Shown here: positions 9,498 to 56,312 of the stretch, in pieces
How positions within the stretch are numbered: position 1 is the stretch's first letter
How the letters are laid out: every line of letters starts with the position of its first letter
Assembly (NCBI GenBank): GCA_902777835.1
Contig: CACYVC010000003.1
Location: forward strand, 40,452-104,451
Reading direction: 5' to 3'
DNA length: 64,000 nt
Origin: an uncultured Bacteroidales bacterium
GTDB taxonomy: Bacteria > Bacteroidota > Bacteroidia > Bacteroidales > Muribaculaceae
Notes under the pieces: model-generated
Databases searched by the model: none
What the model was told of the DNA's origin: nothing
Seen by the model: only the letters and a program-made list of their open reading frames with translations
Translations under genes and position numbers: made by a program

Positions 9498-9582
9498 ATC
9501 AAAGGTCGAGGATCGGAGATCGGGGCTCACAACTCTGAACAATAAACTATGAGCTATGAACTCTTAACTATGAACTAATAAC
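9492..9582. repeat. Heptamer array (13 imperfect 7-bp units) between mutS and the histidine phosphatase gene
   Basis: Read in steps of seven from 9492, units go from TCGTGAA through TCGGAGA to TATGAAC, TCTTAAC, TATGAAC. The array spans the mutS stop (9495-9497) and ends three bases before the next ATG. It has two word classes: GC-rich (TCGGAGA type) then AT-rich (TATGAAC type). The related array at 10885 lies on the other side of the gene in inverted sense. Confidence 0.75.
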
Positions 9583-13792: not shown

Positions 13793-13807
13793 TTACTTAA
13801 TGCACAA

Positions 13808-13843
13808 TCTAGAACCTCTAGATAATCTAGAACCTCTAGAAAA
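13808..13843. repeat. Nonamer array, four 9-bp units
   Basis: TCTAGAACC, TCTAGATAA, TCTAGAACC, TCTAGAAAA. It sits between lptE and the next gene, just upstream of its start. Confidence 0.8.
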
Positions 13844-13852
13844 TATTAAATA

Positions 13853-16077: not shown

Positions 16078-16088
16078 CTAACGAAAAA

Positions 16089-16123
16089 ACTATGAACTCT
16101 TAACTATAAACTATGAACTATAA
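16089..16123. repeat. Heptamer array (five units) containing the rluA-family start codon
   Basis: ACTATGA, ACTCTTA, ACTATAA, ACTATGA, ACTATAA. The ATG in the fourth unit is the start of the next gene; an earlier in-frame ATG in the first unit is closed by a TAA after three codons. Confidence 0.75.
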
Positions 16124-17024
16124 AAAATCTCCTCGCCGTGGACCGGCGACCGATAATGTGGCAAAACTCACCATCAAAGAAGACGGCACGCTACTCACTG
16201 CCGCAGCTGCTTTGCTGCCCGACCACAAGCCCACCAAACTCAAGTCCATGCTGCGCCACAACCAGTTGGCAATCAACGGGGTGCCATCCACACAATTTGA
16301 CCTCCCAGTTAACGCTGGCGACCAGTTGTGGGTCAACTTCGACCGCTCCTTCCAGGTCTTCAACCACCCCCGCATCAAGCTCGTGTATGAAGACAACGAC
16401 ATCATAGTAGTCGATAAAGGCTACGGCGTGCTGTCCACAGCTGCCGGCAAGCCCAGCGACGACACGGTTTATAATATTGTAAAGAAATATGCCCGCGGAT
16501 TCAGCGACAAGGCCAACGTGTATGTAGTGCACCGCCTCGACCGCGACACCTCAGGACTGATGCTGCTCACACGCACCAAGCAGGCTCGCGACAAACTCAT
16601 CAGCAACTGGAACAATATGGTCCTCGACCGCAAGTACATCGCCATCGTTGAGGGCAAGGTGGAGCAGAAAGAAGGCACCGTCAAGAGTTTCCTCGCCGAG
16701 AACCCCGACACTTTTGGGATGTACTCTACCGACGATAAGAAGCTAGGCCGACTCGCCGTCACTCGCTACCGCGTCATCAAGCAGGGCAGTCGCTTCGCTA
16801 TGGTGGAGATGGAGATAAAAACTGGACGTAAAAACCAGATCAGGGTGCACATGCACGACTTGGGCAACCCTGTGAGCGGCGACCGCAAATATGGCGGCCA
16901 TCCCAGTCCCATCAACCGTATTGCTCTTCACGCCACTACCCTCACTATCGTGCACCCCACCACAGGCAAAGCCGTCACCTTTACATCCCCAGCGCCCGAG
17001 AATTTCAACACGATGATAAAATAA
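16113..17024 (+). CDS. RluA-family RNA pseudouridine synthase
   Basis: 303 residues. N-terminal S4 RNA-binding segment (LKSMLRHNQLAINGVP with DLPVNAGDQLWV), then the catalytic domain with VHRLDRDTSGLMLLT, in which the Asp of HRLD is the nucleophile, and RKYIAIVEGKV and GRKNQIRVHMHDLG. It converts specific uridines in rRNA or tRNA to pseudouridine; RluD/RluC-type specificity cannot be assigned here. The first residues (MNYKK) come from the repeat array upstream. Confidence 0.9.
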   Translation: MNYKKSPRRGPATDNVAKLTIKEDGTLLTAAAALLPDHKPTKLKSMLRHNQLAINGVPSTQFDLPVNAGDQLWVNFDRSFQVFNHPRIKLVYEDNDIIVVDKGYGVLSTAAGKPSDDTVYNIVKKYARGFSDKANVYVVHRLDRDTSGLMLLTRTKQARDKLISNWNNMVLDRKYIAIVEGKVEQKEGTVKSFLAENPDTFGMYSTDDKKLGRLAVTRYRVIKQGSRFAMVEMEIKTGRKNQIRVHMHDLGNPVSGDRKYGGHPSPINRIALHATTLTIVHPTTGKAVTFTSPAPENFNTMIK

Positions 17025-22422: not shown

Positions 22423-22427
22423 AAAAA

Positions 22428-22469
22428 ATAAGTGTTAAGTAATAAGTGTTAAGTAGTAAATGTAAGCAG
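22428..22469. repeat. Heptamer array (six units) between clpA and aat
   Basis: ATAAGTG, TTAAGTA, ATAAGTG, TTAAGTA, GTAAATG, TAAGCAG, continuing in degraded form to about 22499. It lies just upstream of the aat start. Confidence 0.7.
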
Positions 22470-25042: not shown

Positions 25043-25147
25043 ACTCAGAACTATGAACTGTGAACTATGAACTGTGAACTATGAACTGTGAACTGTGAAC
25101 TATGAACTATGAACTATGAACTGTGAACTATAAACTGTAAACTATTC
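25043..25147. repeat. Heptamer array, 15 units of ACTRTGA
   Basis: Fifteen exact 7-base steps; most units are ACTATGA or ACTGTGA, with ACTCAGA at one end and ACTATAA, ACTGTAA, ACTATTC at the clpS end. The last unit overlaps the clpS stop codon (25142-25144). This is the cleanest array in the window. Confidence 0.92.
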
Positions 25148-30373: not shown

Positions 30374-30561
30374 TTCAAATTTTGTTCGTTTAGTATTACC
30401 AATTATAGTGAATGCTCTCATAAAAGTGTGCAAATTTCCATAAAAAAATTGAAAATTGCAAGAACCGACTGAAATTTATGACACATATTATGAGTAGTAA
30501 AACTCATACACAGCTACTTGGGTTTCCTGAATTCTGCATTAAACAAAGCTCTGCCCAATTC

Positions 30562-30589
30562 TGCATCATGCATTGTGCATTATGCATTG
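30562..30589. repeat. Heptamer array (four units of TGCATNR)
   Basis: TGCATCA, TGCATTG, TGCATTA, TGCATTG, placed immediately after the U32 peptidase stop codon (minus strand). Confidence 0.7.
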
Positions 30590-30590
30590 A

Positions 30591-31904
30591 TCAAACTGGT
30601 TTCCAAAGGAATAGCTTGTCGCTGGGGCGTATCTTCTCATCGGTCTTAATAGAGAATCGCTCGCCTTTGACAGTCTTCTCAACCGGCTTAAGGTCAACGC
30701 GTATCTCCTCTACTGTCATGGGCAGCGCACCAGTGGTGGGACCTGTAATAATTATCTCGTCGCCCACATGAAGCTCGCCAGCCTCCATCAGGAACTCGGC
30801 GACGCCAATTTTGGAGAAATAGCGCACACCCTTGGCAGCATACACCTTGACATGTGTGGCGCTGGAGCCATACTTCGAAGTCCACTCTCCTAACCTCTGT
30901 CCCAAGTAGTAGCCATCCCAGAATCCGCGGTTAAAAACACGCGCTAGCCTCTCGTTCCATTGCTCGATGCGCTCCTCGCAGTAGGTACCATCAACGATGG
31001 CGTTTAGAGCCTCGTTGTAGCAGCGTGCCACAGTGCGCACATATTCTGGACCTCGCGCCCTGCCCTCAATCTTGAAAACACGCACTCCTGCGTTCACCAT
31101 CTTATTGAGGAAATGGATGGTCTTTAGGTCTTTAGGCGACATTATGTATTTGTTGTCGATGGTGAGTTCGTCGCCCGTGTCGCGGTCGGTGACCACATAG
31201 CTGCGACGGCAAATCTGGCGACATGCGCCTCGGTTGGCACTAGAGTTGGCCTCGTGCAGACTCATGTAGCACTTGCCGCTCACCGCCATGCACAAAGCGC
31301 CATGGCAGAACATCTCGAGGCGCACCGGCTCGCCATGCGGACCGCGCACGTCGCTAGCGGTAATAGTCTCGTGGATGCGAGCCACCTGGTCGAGGTTGAG
31401 TTCGCGGGCGAGCACCATCACATCGGCATATTGCGCATAGTAGCGCACCGCCTCGCTGTTGCTCACATTCACCTGGGTGGAAATGTGCACTTCTACCCCA
31501 ATACTGCGAGCATAGAGAATGGTCGCCATATCGCTAGCGATGATGGCACTGATATGGGCATCGCGCGCCGCATCCACTATGCGGTGCATATAGTCGATGT
31601 CCTCGTCATAGATGATAGTGTTTACTGTGAGATAAGTTTTGATGCCACGCTCAGCGCACCACTGCGCTATAGTGTGCAGGTCGTCGATAGAGAAGTTCAC
31701 GCTCGACTTAGAGCGCATATTCAAATTCTCAATGCCAAAATAAATAGCATCGGCACCACCCTGCTGCGCCGCCACCAGCGATTCCCACGACCCCACAGGG
31801 GCCATTAATTCAAAAGCGCTTCTTTCGTTTATCGTTATTCGTTTATCGTTTATCGAAGTCGTTGTTGAGATTTTAGGCACTTCAATCTCCTTTTTTGTAT
31901 CCAT
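30591..31904 (-). CDS. U32 family peptidase
   Basis: 437 residues. Seen: ELMAPVGSWESLVAAQQGGADAIYFG, the Cys cluster MFCHGALCMAVSGKCYMS with GACRQICRRSY, and KIEGRARGPEYVRTV. U32 proteins related to E. coli TrhP work in prephenate-dependent tRNA 5-hydroxyuridine formation; others degrade collagen. The first 33 residues are atypical: residues 16-27 are encoded by a 34-bp inverted repeat (31824-31857) made of 7-bp units, and the start codon lies inside the framed insert. Family members usually begin near ELMAPVGS, so this N-terminus may be recent. Confidence 0.85.
   Translation of the reverse strand: MDTKKEIEVPKISTTTSINDKRITINERSAFELMAPVGSWESLVAAQQGGADAIYFGIENLNMRSKSSVNFSIDDLHTIAQWCAERGIKTYLTVNTIIYDEDIDYMHRIVDAARDAHISAIIASDMATILYARSIGVEVHISTQVNVSNSEAVRYYAQYADVMVLARELNLDQVARIHETITASDVRGPHGEPVRLEMFCHGALCMAVSGKCYMSLHEANSSANRGACRQICRRSYVVTDRDTGDELTIDNKYIMSPKDLKTIHFLNKMVNAGVRVFKIEGRARGPEYVRTVARCYNEALNAIVDGTYCEERIEQWNERLARVFNRGFWDGYYLGQRLGEWTSKYGSSATHVKVYAAKGVRYFSKIGVAEFLMEAGELHVGDEIIITGPTTGALPMTVEEIRVDLKPVEKTVKGERFSIKTDEKIRPSDKLFLWKPV
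31824..31857. repeat. 34-bp inverted repeat, inner-left arm of the four-helix-bundle cassette
   Basis: Built of CGTTTAT units (TTCG at one end, CGAA at the other). Its reverse complement matches 32473-32506 at 32 of 34 bases. It lies inside the 5' part of the U32 peptidase gene. Confidence 0.85.
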
Positions 31905-31946
31905 TTTTATTATTTCGCTTTAAAATTGATAATAAGGATTAAATAT

Positions 31947-32330
31947 CTAAGTTAATTTGTTTATCATTGAGCGACGATATCCACTCAACATCATACCAAT
32001 GCGAACTCCCATTGTCTTAAAACGAGAGAAATCATCTTCATTAATATATTCCAGTCTTTTCCCTATATTTAGCTGACATATAACTTCAGCCAAAGAACCC
32101 ATTGCTATTTCATTGAAATGTAACTTCTCCTTTATTGAAGTTCTTCCTGTTCCTTCTGCAATATTTGAAGGAATAGATATTGCTGCTCTTTTGATTTGAG
32201 AAGTCAAGGCATACTTTTCATTCTCTGGAAATTGTTTAAGTAACTTATATACCTCAGTAACAAAATCCATAGACAAGTTCCACATCTCAAGTTGTTCAAA
32301 AGAAAATAGAGCAAAATCCATAATCAACAA
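31947..32330 (-). CDS. Four-helix bundle protein (23S rRNA intervening-sequence type)
   Basis: 127 residues. Recognised by LKQFPENEKYALTSQIKRAAISIPSNIAEGTGR and the helical pattern before and after. This family occurs in intervening sequences of 23S rRNA in some bacteria, as the accessory protein of diversity-generating retroelements, and as stand-alone genes of unknown role. Base composition is more AT-rich than the neighbours. The gene is alone inside a 683-base segment framed by 34-bp inverted repeats. No reverse transcriptase or transposase is in the window. An internal Met at residue 4 is an alternative start. Confidence 0.85.
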   Translation of the reverse strand: MLIMDFALFSFEQLEMWNLSMDFVTEVYKLLKQFPENEKYALTSQIKRAAISIPSNIAEGTGRTSIKEKLHFNEIAMGSLAEVICQLNIGKRLEYINEDDFSRFKTMGVRIGMMLSGYRRSMINKLT

Positions 32331-32472
32331 TATATCAAACTGATTTATAGAAATATGCGAAAGTATCCTTTTCAGAATGCTCTCGCTTTAGAGTAATAAA
32401 ATCAAACTTAACATAAGAAATACTATTATATCTCTATGTTATTGATTGTGATACGCCTGATTAATCACTGTT

Positions 32473-32506
32473 TTCGATAAACGATAAACGACAAACGATA
32501 AACGAA
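32473..32506. repeat. 34-bp inverted repeat, right arm of the four-helix-bundle cassette
   Basis: Units CGATAAA, CGATAAA, CGACAAA, CGATAAA between TT and CGAA ends. It lies two bases from the stop of the endonuclease gene. Confidence 0.85.
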
Positions 32507-32508
32507 TA

Positions 32509-33636
32509 TCATTCTGCCTCCTTCACCAGGAATATCTCCGTTGGGAAGTGGTCGCTGTAGCCGTTGAGGAAGACGCCGCTGCTATAGGTGCGGAGGGGGT
32601 AGCCCTTGCGGTCGCCTTCTTGAGTCTTCAGGAAGTCGCGGTTGAGAGCTTCGGCACGCAAGAATGTGAGGCGTGGCTTGTCCTTGCTATTTCTATATCT
32701 AGTGAAATATCCACTGCACATAATCTGGTCGAAGAGGTTCCACTGACCTTTATAAGCTAATGTTCCCACACCCTTGGCAAGCACATTCCAGAAGGGGTTG
32801 AACATCTCGCCAGGACCATTCACGTCTTCAATATTGCGCTTTCCGCCTACCGACTCGGCACATGCCTTGTCCATTGGGTCGTCGTTGAGGTCACCCATAA
32901 AGATGATGCCAATGTTGTCGCCATGCACATTCACCAGTGAGTCAATAGTGCGGCGGCACATGTAGCCCGCAGCCTCACGCTTGGGACTCGATGCCTCCTG
33001 GCCACCAAGTCGCGAAGGCCAGTGGTTAACCATCACAGCAACTGTGTCGCCAGCAAGCAAGCCAACCACACAAATCTGGTCACGGGTGCGGAAGTTCTCG
33101 TTCCATTCATATTCCAGTTTGCGAGCAGGATCGGCAGCAGCTGCGGCACGCTCAAAGTCCTCCTCGCTCAAGCGCTGGTTTGTAACGTTAAGTACACGGA
33201 AATAGCGTGGATTATACAGCACTCCCACATCCACGCCACGACGGTCGGGACTATCGTGGTAAGGAGCTATCTGAAGTCGCCAATTACGTATTTGTGGGTC
33301 TCTAACGAGATCTTGCAGCACTGTTACATTCTCAATCTCACTCACACCGATGATAGCTGGCCCATAAGGAGTGTTATCGGTCTTCATCTGGGAAATAGCA
33401 TAAGCCATTCTATCTATTTTCATCCAATACTTGCGGCCATCCCACTGACGAGCGCCGTTAGGCGAGAACTCCAAGTCGTAGGTGCCATTAGAGTTGATGG
33501 TGTCAAACAAGTTCTCGAGGTTGTAAAACATTACGCCATACACTTTGTAACGCTTTTCTTGCTGCACATTGTCTTGTGCATTCATCGCTGGTAATAAAAC
33601 CATTGCCACCAATGCGGCGAATAATAACTTCTTCAT
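32509..33636 (-). CDS. Secreted endonuclease/exonuclease/phosphatase family protein
   Basis: 375 residues from ATG 33636, which gives signal peptide MKKLLFAALVAMVLLPAMNAQ; a longer frame from 33669 has a hydrophilic start. Seen: VMFYNLENLFD, PAIIGVSEIEN, RRGVDVGVLYN, VMVNHWPSRLGG, IIFMGDLNDDP, and the final GYSDHFPTEIFL, the usual metal and catalytic Asp/His/Asn set. Likely an exported DNase/RNase or sugar-phosphate phosphatase. It is divergent from a second secreted nuclease at 33889. Confidence 0.88.
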   Translation of the reverse strand: MKKLLFAALVAMVLLPAMNAQDNVQQEKRYKVYGVMFYNLENLFDTINSNGTYDLEFSPNGARQWDGRKYWMKIDRMAYAISQMKTDNTPYGPAIIGVSEIENVTVLQDLVRDPQIRNWRLQIAPYHDSPDRRGVDVGVLYNPRYFRVLNVTNQRLSEEDFERAAAAADPARKLEYEWNENFRTRDQICVVGLLAGDTVAVMVNHWPSRLGGQEASSPKREAAGYMCRRTIDSLVNVHGDNIGIIFMGDLNDDPMDKACAESVGGKRNIEDVNGPGEMFNPFWNVLAKGVGTLAYKGQWNLFDQIMCSGYFTRYRNSKDKPRLTFLRAEALNRDFLKTQEGDRKGYPLRTYSSGVFLNGYSDHFPTEIFLVKEAE

Positions 33637-33685
33637 AGATTTATCTGTTTTATGTTTATATTTCGGCAAATTATCAATTAATTTC

Positions 33686-33693
33686 CAAAAATA
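33686..33693 (-). promoter_or_regulatory. Promoter -7 box for the EEP nuclease gene
   Basis: TATTTTTG on the minus strand, 50 bases before the chosen start. Confidence 0.5.
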
Positions 33694-33806
33694 CTAATTT
33701 TTCTTGAAACAACACCCTTTTTAGATGAAAAAAGTAAAAAAAAAGAAAGTTGTAAGAGAATAAATAAAATACAAAAATGCAATTAATTGAAGTTTGTGAT
33801 GCCAAA

Positions 33807-33838
33807 TTTGGTCATTATCAGAAAAAATAGTAACTTGC
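33807..33838 (+). promoter_or_regulatory. Promoter for the dockerin-bearing nuclease
   Basis: TTTG (33807-33810), 20-base spacer, TAACTTGC (33831-33838), one base from the -7 consensus. It lies inside the longer reading frame, so the start is ATG 33889. Confidence 0.5.
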
Positions 33839-33888
33839 ACAACTTTTCAGAATACAAAATTGACATTAACATCAAAAACTTTATAACT

Positions 33889-35988
33889 ATGGTAAAACGA
33901 ATTTATTTACTCTCAATGATGATGTGCCTCGCTCTAGGCGCCATGGCTGCGACCGAGACCAGAACCGCAACCTTCGACTTCAGTTCGCCTGAGGCACTAA
34001 CACAACTGGGACTGCCCACGCCCACTAGCAGTAATCCCACCTATCTTCAGAACAATATCACAGTGGGCGATATCACATTTGTCCCTGGCAGTAGTGCACC
34101 ACGCTCAACATTCTATCAGAATCAATACACTTTCTACACTACTAGCGGCAACACATTCTCGTTCCAAGCAGGCAGTGGAGCGACCATCAAGCGTGTCGAT
34201 TTCGACGGTTTCTACACCCAGCAGCGCTTTACAGCATCTCCTGCCGGTTTCGACTCAGGTAACTCCTATTGGAGCGGCTCTACCAGCAAGGTAACCTTTA
34301 CGGGCACTGGCGGCAACTCCTTGTTCTCGATGACTGTGACCTACGAGGTGGAAGTGTCAAACTATAACCCTTGTGACGTGAACCGCGACGGAGAAGTGAC
34401 AGTGGCGGATATTACTGCCTTGTATAACAATCTGCTCAACAACGACATGACCTTCTTTGACTCATGCGACGTTAACGGCGACGGCGAAATCACCAGCGCT
34501 GACATTACCATGATTTACAACTACCTACTCTCGGGCGCACAACCACCCACAGTGCCCATGCCCACCTTCAGCCATCCCTCGGGCACGGTGTTTAACACAC
34601 CAACTGAAGTGACGGTTACAGGTCCTGCCAATAGTCGAGTATATATCACTACCGATGGCAGCACTCCAAGCACTACACACTATCATGACAACGCATATGG
34701 CTCAATCACTGTGATGGTAGGCTTCAATATGACCCTCAAGGCTATTGCCGTAGTCGATGGTCAGTCAAGTGCCGTGGCAACAGCGGAGTATTCACTTGTT
34801 GAAGTGCCAGGCCCCACCTTCAACCCACCTTCAGGAACAGTGTTCCAAGGCTCTGGTTCGGTGACAATCACTGGCCCTTACGGCAGTATGATTTACTTCA
34901 CACTCGACGGAACGACTCCCACCACAAGCCACTATTACACTCACGGAAACTCGCCCTACACTATCGAGGAACTCGAAGTTGGAACTACAACCATCAAGGC
35001 TATAGCTGTCCTTAACGGAGTGGCAAGTCCAGTGATGACAGCCGTTTACACCGTGGAAGAAGTTACTAACAACAATATCAATGCCAACTGGCAAGAGACG
35101 GCCTTCAATATCCCCGAATCTGGCATTAAACCCACCACTTCTAGTGCCACTTACAACCAGGCTTGGCGCATTGAATACCCACACATCAACACAAGCTCTA
35201 ACTATATGGTTGTGGTACATGCTACAAACCCCTTAGGCATTTCGATGTCGCTGGAGCTTGACAAGAGCCAGCGTGCCAACCATTGGACATGCTACACCAT
35301 GCACAGTGGTCTTCCCAACAACAACGTGGGCCGTGTGACCAGCACTTTCCACCCCGACGAATGCGTTCCTACTGCCTATCAAGTAGCTCACAACGAGTAC
35401 ACAACAGGCAAATATACCACTAGCTGCACCAACCTTGACGGCAGCAACATGACCCTCTTTGCCCGCGGCCATATCTGCGCGTCGGAAGATCGCCAGACTA
35501 CTGAGGACCAGAATTATGACACATTCACCACCAGCAACATCCATCCACAGTATCAAGCCCACAATGCTGGCCTGTGGCAACGCATGGAGAGCAAGGTTCA
35601 GAACTGGGGTTACAACAACAACTTCCGCGATACACTCTACATCTGTAAGGGCGCCACAATTGGCAACGTAGTTCTCAACGGCACAACCACTTCTGGCACA
35701 ATTCCTAAATCGGAGGTATCAAACTTGTTTGGTGTTAACATCACTGGCACCCTCACCATTCCTCGCTACTGGTATATGGCAGTATTGCGACTGAAAAACG
35801 GTCAATACCAGGCAATGGCCTATTGGACCGAGCAAATCAATAGTTCGTGCAGTTCAACCACCTTGCAAAGCTGCATGATAACCATCGACGAGTTGGAGCA
35901 GAGGACAGGAATTGACTTCTTCTGCAACCTGCCCGACGACATTGAGGAACAAGTGGAAGCTACGCTCAACACCAGCATCTGGCAGTAG
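33889..35988 (+). CDS. Secreted DNA/RNA non-specific endonuclease with dockerin and two chitobiase-type domains
   Basis: 699 residues: signal peptide MVKRIYLLSMMMCLALGAMAA; beta-rich N-terminal domain (about 25-155); a complete type I dockerin (about 162-216) with two Ca-binding repeats, CDVNRDGEVTVADI and CDVNGDGEITSADI; two CHB_HEX_C-type domains (about 223-301 and 303-391) each with FSHPSGTVF or FNPPSGTVF and DGSTP/DGTTP; then the Endonuclease_NS domain (406-690) with ARGHICASEDR (catalytic His near 528) and TTSNIHPQYQAHNAGLWQRME. The usual DRGH reads ARGH. A dockerin in mid-protein is unusual. Confidence 0.88.
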   Translation: MVKRIYLLSMMMCLALGAMAATETRTATFDFSSPEALTQLGLPTPTSSNPTYLQNNITVGDITFVPGSSAPRSTFYQNQYTFYTTSGNTFSFQAGSGATIKRVDFDGFYTQQRFTASPAGFDSGNSYWSGSTSKVTFTGTGGNSLFSMTVTYEVEVSNYNPCDVNRDGEVTVADITALYNNLLNNDMTFFDSCDVNGDGEITSADITMIYNYLLSGAQPPTVPMPTFSHPSGTVFNTPTEVTVTGPANSRVYITTDGSTPSTTHYHDNAYGSITVMVGFNMTLKAIAVVDGQSSAVATAEYSLVEVPGPTFNPPSGTVFQGSGSVTITGPYGSMIYFTLDGTTPTTSHYYTHGNSPYTIEELEVGTTTIKAIAVLNGVASPVMTAVYTVEEVTNNNINANWQETAFNIPESGIKPTTSSATYNQAWRIEYPHINTSSNYMVVVHATNPLGISMSLELDKSQRANHWTCYTMHSGLPNNNVGRVTSTFHPDECVPTAYQVAHNEYTTGKYTTSCTNLDGSNMTLFARGHICASEDRQTTEDQNYDTFTTSNIHPQYQAHNAGLWQRMESKVQNWGYNNNFRDTLYICKGATIGNVVLNGTTTSGTIPKSEVSNLFGVNITGTLTIPRYWYMAVLRLKNGQYQAMAYWTEQINSSCSSTTLQSCMITIDELEQRTGIDFFCNLPDDIEEQVEATLNTSIWQ

Positions 35989-56235: not shown

Positions 56236-56274
56236 AGTTTAGTGGTTAGTGGTTAGAGTTAAGTGGTTAGTGGT
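56233..56274. repeat. Heptamer array (six units) after the DUF4923 gene
   Basis: Starts at the TAA stop: TAAAGTT, TAGTGGT, TAGTGGT, TAGAGTT, AAGTGGT, TAGTGGT. Confidence 0.85.
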
Positions 56275-56312
56275 TTCCACTCTCATCACTTTATTCTGCC
56301 AGAAATTTTAGT

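Follow-up and report, generated by a model that had tools for sequence, protein, structure and literature searches.

The nearest known system to the locus described here is the intervening sequence (IVS) of 23S rRNA genes, and the TAACTGA heptamer arrays come second. In the Coxiella IVS, two to three tandem GACAGAT heptamers lie upstream of the S23p ORF, by an RNase III site, and this S23p is described as decaying; no function is known for S23 proteins according to PMC4990558. TAACTGA heptamer arrays occur in Beggiatoaceae, Cyanobacteria and Bacteroidetes, heptamers are cited as more abundant than any other 5-11-nt long repeat class, X. campestris ATCC 33913 is named among the richest heptamer genomes, and the heptamer arrays of scattered bacterial genomes are without an accepted cause, as given in PMC4679880; its main text contains neither S23 nor 'four helix'. 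Heptamer arrays, and heptamers beside one IVS S23 gene, are already in print. In the full-text literature, with subscription journals and preprints outside its scope, we found no general link between S23 genes and heptamers, so that the absence of such a link is weakly supported. In REP/RAYT systems and MITEs, inverted copies of a repeat lie on both sides of a gene, and the repeat is also dispersed without this gene. Avd/bAvd is an accessory protein of diversity-generating retroelements. The locus reported below has counterparts, built from different 7-letter units, around S23 genes of many bacteria, and this suggests that S23 and the scattered repeats are parts of one genetic element.

The window analysed here is a 64-kb stretch of a Muribaculaceae genome, in which an AT-rich cassette lies at 31824-32506. 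Its two arms (31824-31857, adjoining a U32 gene, and 32473-32506, adjoining an Exo_endo_phos_3 gene; neither is assigned a strand) are 34-nt inverted repeats that match at 32 of 34 positions, are 94% complementary and lie 615 nt apart. TRF, which was used to call the arrays of the window and compared with which our custom period-scan script was cruder, showed that both arms consist of TCGTTTA heptamers in tandem. The 17-mer TCGTTTATCGTTTATCG has six matches in the window at up to three mismatches, every one within the two arms, and 100 shuffles gave a mean of 0.07 and a largest value of 1, which rules out a chance origin of the arms. GC content of the cassette interior (31858-32472, minus strand) is 0.306, rank 3 of 1268 sliding windows; U32 has 0.542, the gene upstream 0.499 and the window as a whole 0.472. 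Between the arms, the sole gene-like ORF is a PF05635 gene (S23, 23S_rRNA_IVP), and neither a Y1 transposase gene nor a reverse transcriptase ORF was found. The U32 gene (30591-31904) and the upstream Exo_endo_phos_3 gene (32509-33669), beside whose stop codon one arm begins, are also on the minus strand. RNA folding of 31811-32520 (minus strand) predicts that the arms pair with each other, with 32 bases of one arm involved. The cassette is thus like a 23S IVS in having an S23-family gene between complementary terminal arms, with RNA pairing predicted, but it lies in a spacer between protein genes and not in 23S rRNA. Because an rRNA scan of the whole window found none, and none of 20 S23 loci scanned lay within rRNA, the cassette is not a 23S IVS. 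It also differs from the Coxiella IVS in that the whole arms are arrays and copies of the unit are scattered across the genome. Plasmid records searched with 30500-34000 gave no match.

The S23 ORF (31947-32330, minus strand) has 127 codons from a TTG start, and its first ATG is codon 4, at 32321. In a profile search it matched PF05635 with 124.8 bits (E 2.1e-36; curated cut-off 33.8). Its closest solved chain is 2gsc (XCC0516, E 1.3e-21), which comes from X. campestris. The similarity to the Avd-type (bAvd) profile PF22296 is weak, at 24.4 bits and below the cut-off of 40, and the cassette differs from Avd systems in having no reverse transcriptase ORF. The inverted arms, the AT-rich gene for a four-helix bundle and its place in the S23/IVS family, all of which had been claimed in a first-pass annotation of this DNA, were confirmed; the relation to Avd claimed there found no support in the form given. 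Between the own genome (G000) and a relative (G001), dN and dS are 0.068 and 0.631 for S23, and 0.017 and 0.846 for U32. The window S23 is under purifying selection and the protein is kept, whereas the Coxiella S23p is described as decaying in PMC4990558. Six PF05635 matches were found in the own genome, four of them above the cut-off, and these four copies have inverted flank scores of 28 (window), 25, 19 and 15, with four different units. The next score among the 52 ORFs of the window is 13. Apart from this, PMC3936711 reports that cas loci contain 18 S23-family genes, frequently together with Cas4 or Cas6.

The U32 reading frame opens within the cassette and runs through the arm, which encodes U32 residues 16-27. 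A search for U32 in 41 genomes gave a match in 39, and 30 loci were examined. The exo gene was upstream of U32 in four of the 30 loci, and S23 lay between the two genes in three of these four (G000, G001 and G011). The search of related genomes for U32 without the insert, which the first-pass annotation had suggested, revealed such a case: G010, of the same genus, has the same U32 and exo neighbours (92% and 90% identical, respectively) without S23. Thus S23 is present or absent at this site among close species. The N-terminus of G010 U32 is unrelated upstream of FELMAPVG, whereas G000, G001 and G011 read through the arm (by reading). Because the N-terminus of U32 is unrelated in the relative that lacks S23, the start of U32 is supplied by the cassette, as had been claimed; in the window copy, the translation start of a conserved gene has thus passed to a repeat array. 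The read-through of G011 carries an in-frame duplication. In comparing G010 with the S23-bearing spacers, we recognised no clean insertion junction and no target-site duplication; the G010 spacer holds 9-bp TCTAGA repeats and is therefore not a pristine empty site, and the absence of S23 in G010 may be a loss. The proposal that an IVS-like or mobile cassette had landed at the 5' end of U32 consequently stands in part: the cassette is found in G000, G001 and G011 and is absent from G010, but it is not a 23S IVS, and no clean junction or duplication was recognised. At L152, the spacer between S23 and U32 has a stretch of about 60 bp, heptamer array included, that is duplicated in tandem and in frame and makes the U32 N-terminus longer. 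TCTAGA-containing tandem 9-bp (18-bp) repeats are also present at 13806-13844 of the window and in the spacer upstream of U32 in L153, as a separate repeat class. A mini inverted-heptamer hairpin lies upstream of U32 in G007 (L161, by eye).

Framing by inverted arrays was found at S23 loci of many hosts. A contig scan gave 581 S23 relatives, of which the best 80, from many bacterial phyla as judged by record title and with several metagenome bins among them, were kept; 78 of these were scored, and L048 and L087 were left out as their flanks were too short. The inverted flank score was at least 14 in 51 of the 78 loci and at least 18 in 34, compared with 6 and 0 of 624 in a mismatched control, in which a left flank was scored against the right flanks of other loci. 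In the remaining 27 loci the arm score was below 14, and in direct orientation scores of at least 14 and at least 18 were seen in 14 and 10 of the 78 loci, respectively; both results count against the gene and the repeats being one element. Some direct cases (L059, L080, L110 and L113) are plain same-direction arrays, and therefore inversion is usual, not universal. Among the loci scoring at least 14, with the four own copies included, the arm period is mostly 7 or 14, and 8 and 9 are also found. A second set, not picked by likeness to the window gene, consisted of the 28 highest-ranking PF05635 loci from a sample of Bacteroidales genomes; 15 of the 28 scored at least 15, compared with 1 of 56 controls. 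In a comparison with ORFs at 250-bp flanks, in which 64 of the 80 loci of the first set were taken, 26 of the 28 loci of the second set were whole (L186 and L202 were cut and left out), and 17 of them scored at least 14 and 12 at least 16. The control of 810 ORFs, from pieces of 11 S23-bearing genomes, contained ten with at least 14 and five with at least 16, and rules out that any gene in a repeat-rich spacer is framed. It replaced an earlier control of 358 windows of the same loci (seven with at least 14), because many of those windows were coding. The five highest control ORFs were a PF05635 gene with heptamer arms, a Y1_Tnp gene, a RAYT-like ORF (by eye; without a Pfam match), a sortilin-domain ORF and an ORF like part of a transposase; the four other than PF05635 had no heptamer arms. 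In summary, S23 genes of several phyla are framed by arrays of units of about 7 bp, usually inverted and with units that differ by locus, and this looks new. A Y1_Tnp gene (L236, 15778-16224) and a RAYT-like ORF without a Pfam match (L243, 16324-16947), in S23-rich genomes, lie between non-heptamer inverted repeats.

Besides framing S23 genes, the units tested are dispersed in their host genomes. A 17-mer of TCGTTTA, at up to two mismatches, has 195 matches in the own assembly (2.89 Mb, 52 contigs), compared with 1 for the reversed pattern, which rules out that the arms are private to the cassette. TAAGTGT, the unit of another own S23 copy (L004), has 321 matches, compared with 20 for the reversed pattern. 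We tested six S23-locus units against 14 genomes as 17-mers on both strands with up to two mismatches. Each unit had 166-919 matches in its own genome, and five were commonest there. GTTTACA had 919 matches in its own genome, G041, 220 in G049, 46 in G000, 31 in G051 and 0-7 in the others. AGACCTT had 235 in its own G043, 27 in G051 and 0-1 elsewhere; TAGATGC had 392 in its own G044, 12 in G049, 5 in G050, 1 in G051 and 0 in the others. Outside their own genome, G000, TCGTTTA had 0-2 matches and TAAGTGT had 55 in G050 and 0-6 in the others. GTAGTCA, with 166 matches in its own G042, was slightly commoner in G050 (186), as a variant unit, a result that speaks against the element; it had 20 in G045, 7 in G048 and 0-3 in the others. 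Among the matches listed, the large values outside the own genomes were mostly variant units, namely GTTTTCA and GTTTAAA in G049 and GTAGGCA in G050. The reversed patterns gave 0-7 matches in the own genomes, except for the 20 of TAAGTGT, and up to 156 elsewhere (TAAGTGT in G052).

The dispersed arrays differ in form. In 33 stretches around listed TCGTTTA matches they are mostly in a single orientation and not hairpins, which again counts against the element, and they often lie beside arrays of other heptamers; L127 and L149 have close facing pairs. Gene-less mini-hairpins of an S23-locus unit were seen in two genomes, G043 and G041: 16 sites chosen for facing arrays (11 in G043 and five in G041) have long predicted stems and short closing loops. 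Among the matches listed for G043, all 11 close pairs (<200 bp) face inward, and so does the pair around its S23 locus, about 0.5 kb apart. TRF also revealed arrays of several other units in the window, none of them assigned a strand: a gene-less AATAAGTGTTAAGT array at 22427-22463, the unit of which frames the S23 copy L004, and a gene-less GAACTAT array of 14 copies at 25048-25145, for which no S23 partner was identified. The first-pass annotation had suggested a search for other copies of the arms and had held that, if they occur at many sites without the gene, they are ordinary heptamer arrays. Inverted arrays do occur at S23 loci of many hosts, with other units, and arms do occur at many gene-less sites, as literally worded there. 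It does not follow that they are ordinary, because S23 is framed far more often than controls and the six units are dispersed in their own genomes. Tandem 7-bp arrays at many intergenic sites, which define the intergenic heptamer-array class (STRR/long SSR), are found here, and like the TAACTGA arrays they are scattered over phyla; here, in contrast, the units lie around S23 genes and follow their occurrence, often in inverted form, and vary by locus. The inverted repeats around a gene, dispersed elsewhere without it, resemble REP/RAYT systems and MITEs, but the gene is S23 and not a tyrosine transposase, and the repeat consists of tandem units that vary in sequence but have an almost constant period. 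Other window arrays, of AACTATG, ATTATGC and TTAGTGG types, lie at 9531-9577, 16087-16124, 30558-30589 and 56236-56275, and no S23 partner was identified for them.

The arrays have a common polarity. Among 72 left arms with a score of at least 14, pooled from all sets and read inward on the coding strand, AG exceeds CT in 66, is less frequent in two and equal in four. The window arm, which has neither AG nor CT, is one of the four equal cases; its lack of AG polarity is a point against the element. Of the 80 loci, 66 were given for a count of placement, and in the 62 with usable neighbours (four were left out) S23 runs in the same direction as both neighbours in 56, compared with 64 of 97 control triples (Fisher p 5.5e-4). 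Five Prevotella-type loci (L037, L038, L039, L055 and L078) have the same neighbours by eye and different units, with octamers on both sides of S23 in L039; arm matches are 23-40 within a locus or near kin and otherwise 7-16. Since the five loci share neighbours, their S23 looks inherited and not mobile. Template-switch correction of imperfect palindromes can make arms change in concert, and the concerted change of these arms could arise in this way without S23. In four other Prevotella-type loci (L043, L047, L050 and L057), S23 is at apparently one site in common with different heptamer units (by eye), and these look like old insertions with array turnover.

Array numbers were also compared between genomes with and without S23. 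PF05635 matches were found in 84 of 119 Bacteroidales genomes, and we compared pieces of 11 genomes with 4-14 S23 copies with pieces of 11 genomes with none, picked for few contigs. Arrays of period 7 or 14 numbered 36 in 1102 kb and 4 in 1146 kb, respectively (Mann-Whitney p 0.0012, kinship ignored), about nine times commoner in the sampled S23-bearing Bacteroidales; these are raw array calls, some of them coding or low-complexity, and include S23 loci in the pieces. Such arrays were present in nine of 11 S23-bearing genomes, the other two showing none in the sample, and in three of 11 S23-free genomes. Arrays of period 8 numbered 18 and 1, and periods 7, 8 and 14 combined gave p 1.6e-4 (kinship ignored). 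Arrays of other periods were also about twice as frequent in the S23-bearing genomes (45 and 24), which counts against the element. In G125, the octamer found at the S23 locus (L198) recurs in only one of the listed period-8 arrays.

We put at roughly 55% the probability that S23 and heptamer arms form an intergenic, IVS-like and REP/MITE-like repeat system in which S23 acts on the repeat hairpin, as judged from sequence. The element would consist of a tandem heptamer array, an S23 gene and the same array inverted, placed in sense between co-directional genes. In its transcript the arrays would pair with each other, with the S23 frame in the loop between them, similar to the 23S rRNA IVS. The S23 protein, a solved relative of which is a ring of five four-helix bundles, would bind to the stem that the paired heptamers form in its own hairpin, of RNA or DNA, and assist in copying the hairpin or in placing it in new intergenic positions. 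We infer from this arrangement that units may move and that an RNA intermediate may be involved. Gene-less arrays and mini-hairpins of the same unit would be its non-autonomous relatives, in the same relation as REPs to RAYTs. A wider reading is tentative and falls somewhat short of an even chance: S23 proteins could be the missing agents behind scattered heptamer and octamer arrays, a transposase-free repeat-maker in which the protein sets period and polarity and not sequence, and rRNA IVSs could be copies that landed in 23S genes.

It is also conceivable that polymerase slippage or another host process makes the arrays, and that S23 lands in them or survives beside them. Many arrays are without S23, template-switch correction could give concerted arms, and slippage has been proposed for bacterial heptamers (Mrazek 2007, as cited in PMC4679880). 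We consider this unlikely, as S23 is the sole heptamer-framed gene among the five of 810 control ORFs with at least 16, arrays are rare in the sampled S23-free genomes, and unit polarity is common to several phyla. The hairpins might instead be domesticated, that is, operon-internal stems cut by RNase III, with S23 as a regulator expressed from them. Arms against stop codons and near start codons, S23 in sense with both neighbours, purifying selection on the window S23, Prevotella loci that retain the site while the unit changes, and the translational role suggested for TAACTGA repeats (PMC4679880) agree with this. Arbitrary unit sequences with quick turnover, hundreds of matches of the tested units per genome, and presence or absence among close species make it improbable. 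A third possibility, that Y1/RAYT-type transposases mobilise a DNA hairpin element in trans and S23 is its cargo, seems quite unlikely: such enzymes usually act on hairpins, and in two of the S23-rich genomes sampled palindromic repeats frame a Y1_Tnp gene and a RAYT-like ORF, but those repeats are not heptamer arrays, and the sense placement of S23 in gene runs suits RNA better than DNA. If S23 and the arrays do form one repeat system, the link would join two puzzles, the function of S23 and the cause of heptamer arrays, and make both testable. On the sequences compared, the present data tie the S23 genes of 23S IVSs to TAACTGA-type heptamer arrays.

Several features were observed at the edges of the arrays. 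Two inverted TAAGTGT arrays enclose what by eye is an RdgB/Ham1-like gene in L127 (about 1393-2200); array framing is thus not exclusive to S23, which counts against the element. The mini-hairpins of G041 and its S23 locus L051 have in common a GATTA-like inner junction beside the array, and related junctions are seen at Prevotella S23 loci with other units (all by eye). A GAAGACAGTG...ACAATCT-like stretch follows TCGTTTA arrays at L117, L121, L131, L138, L139 and L147, and is possibly an element end in common. The inner edge of the window arm (32440-32475), CGAAAACAGTGA...ATCACAATC, is similar to this stretch.
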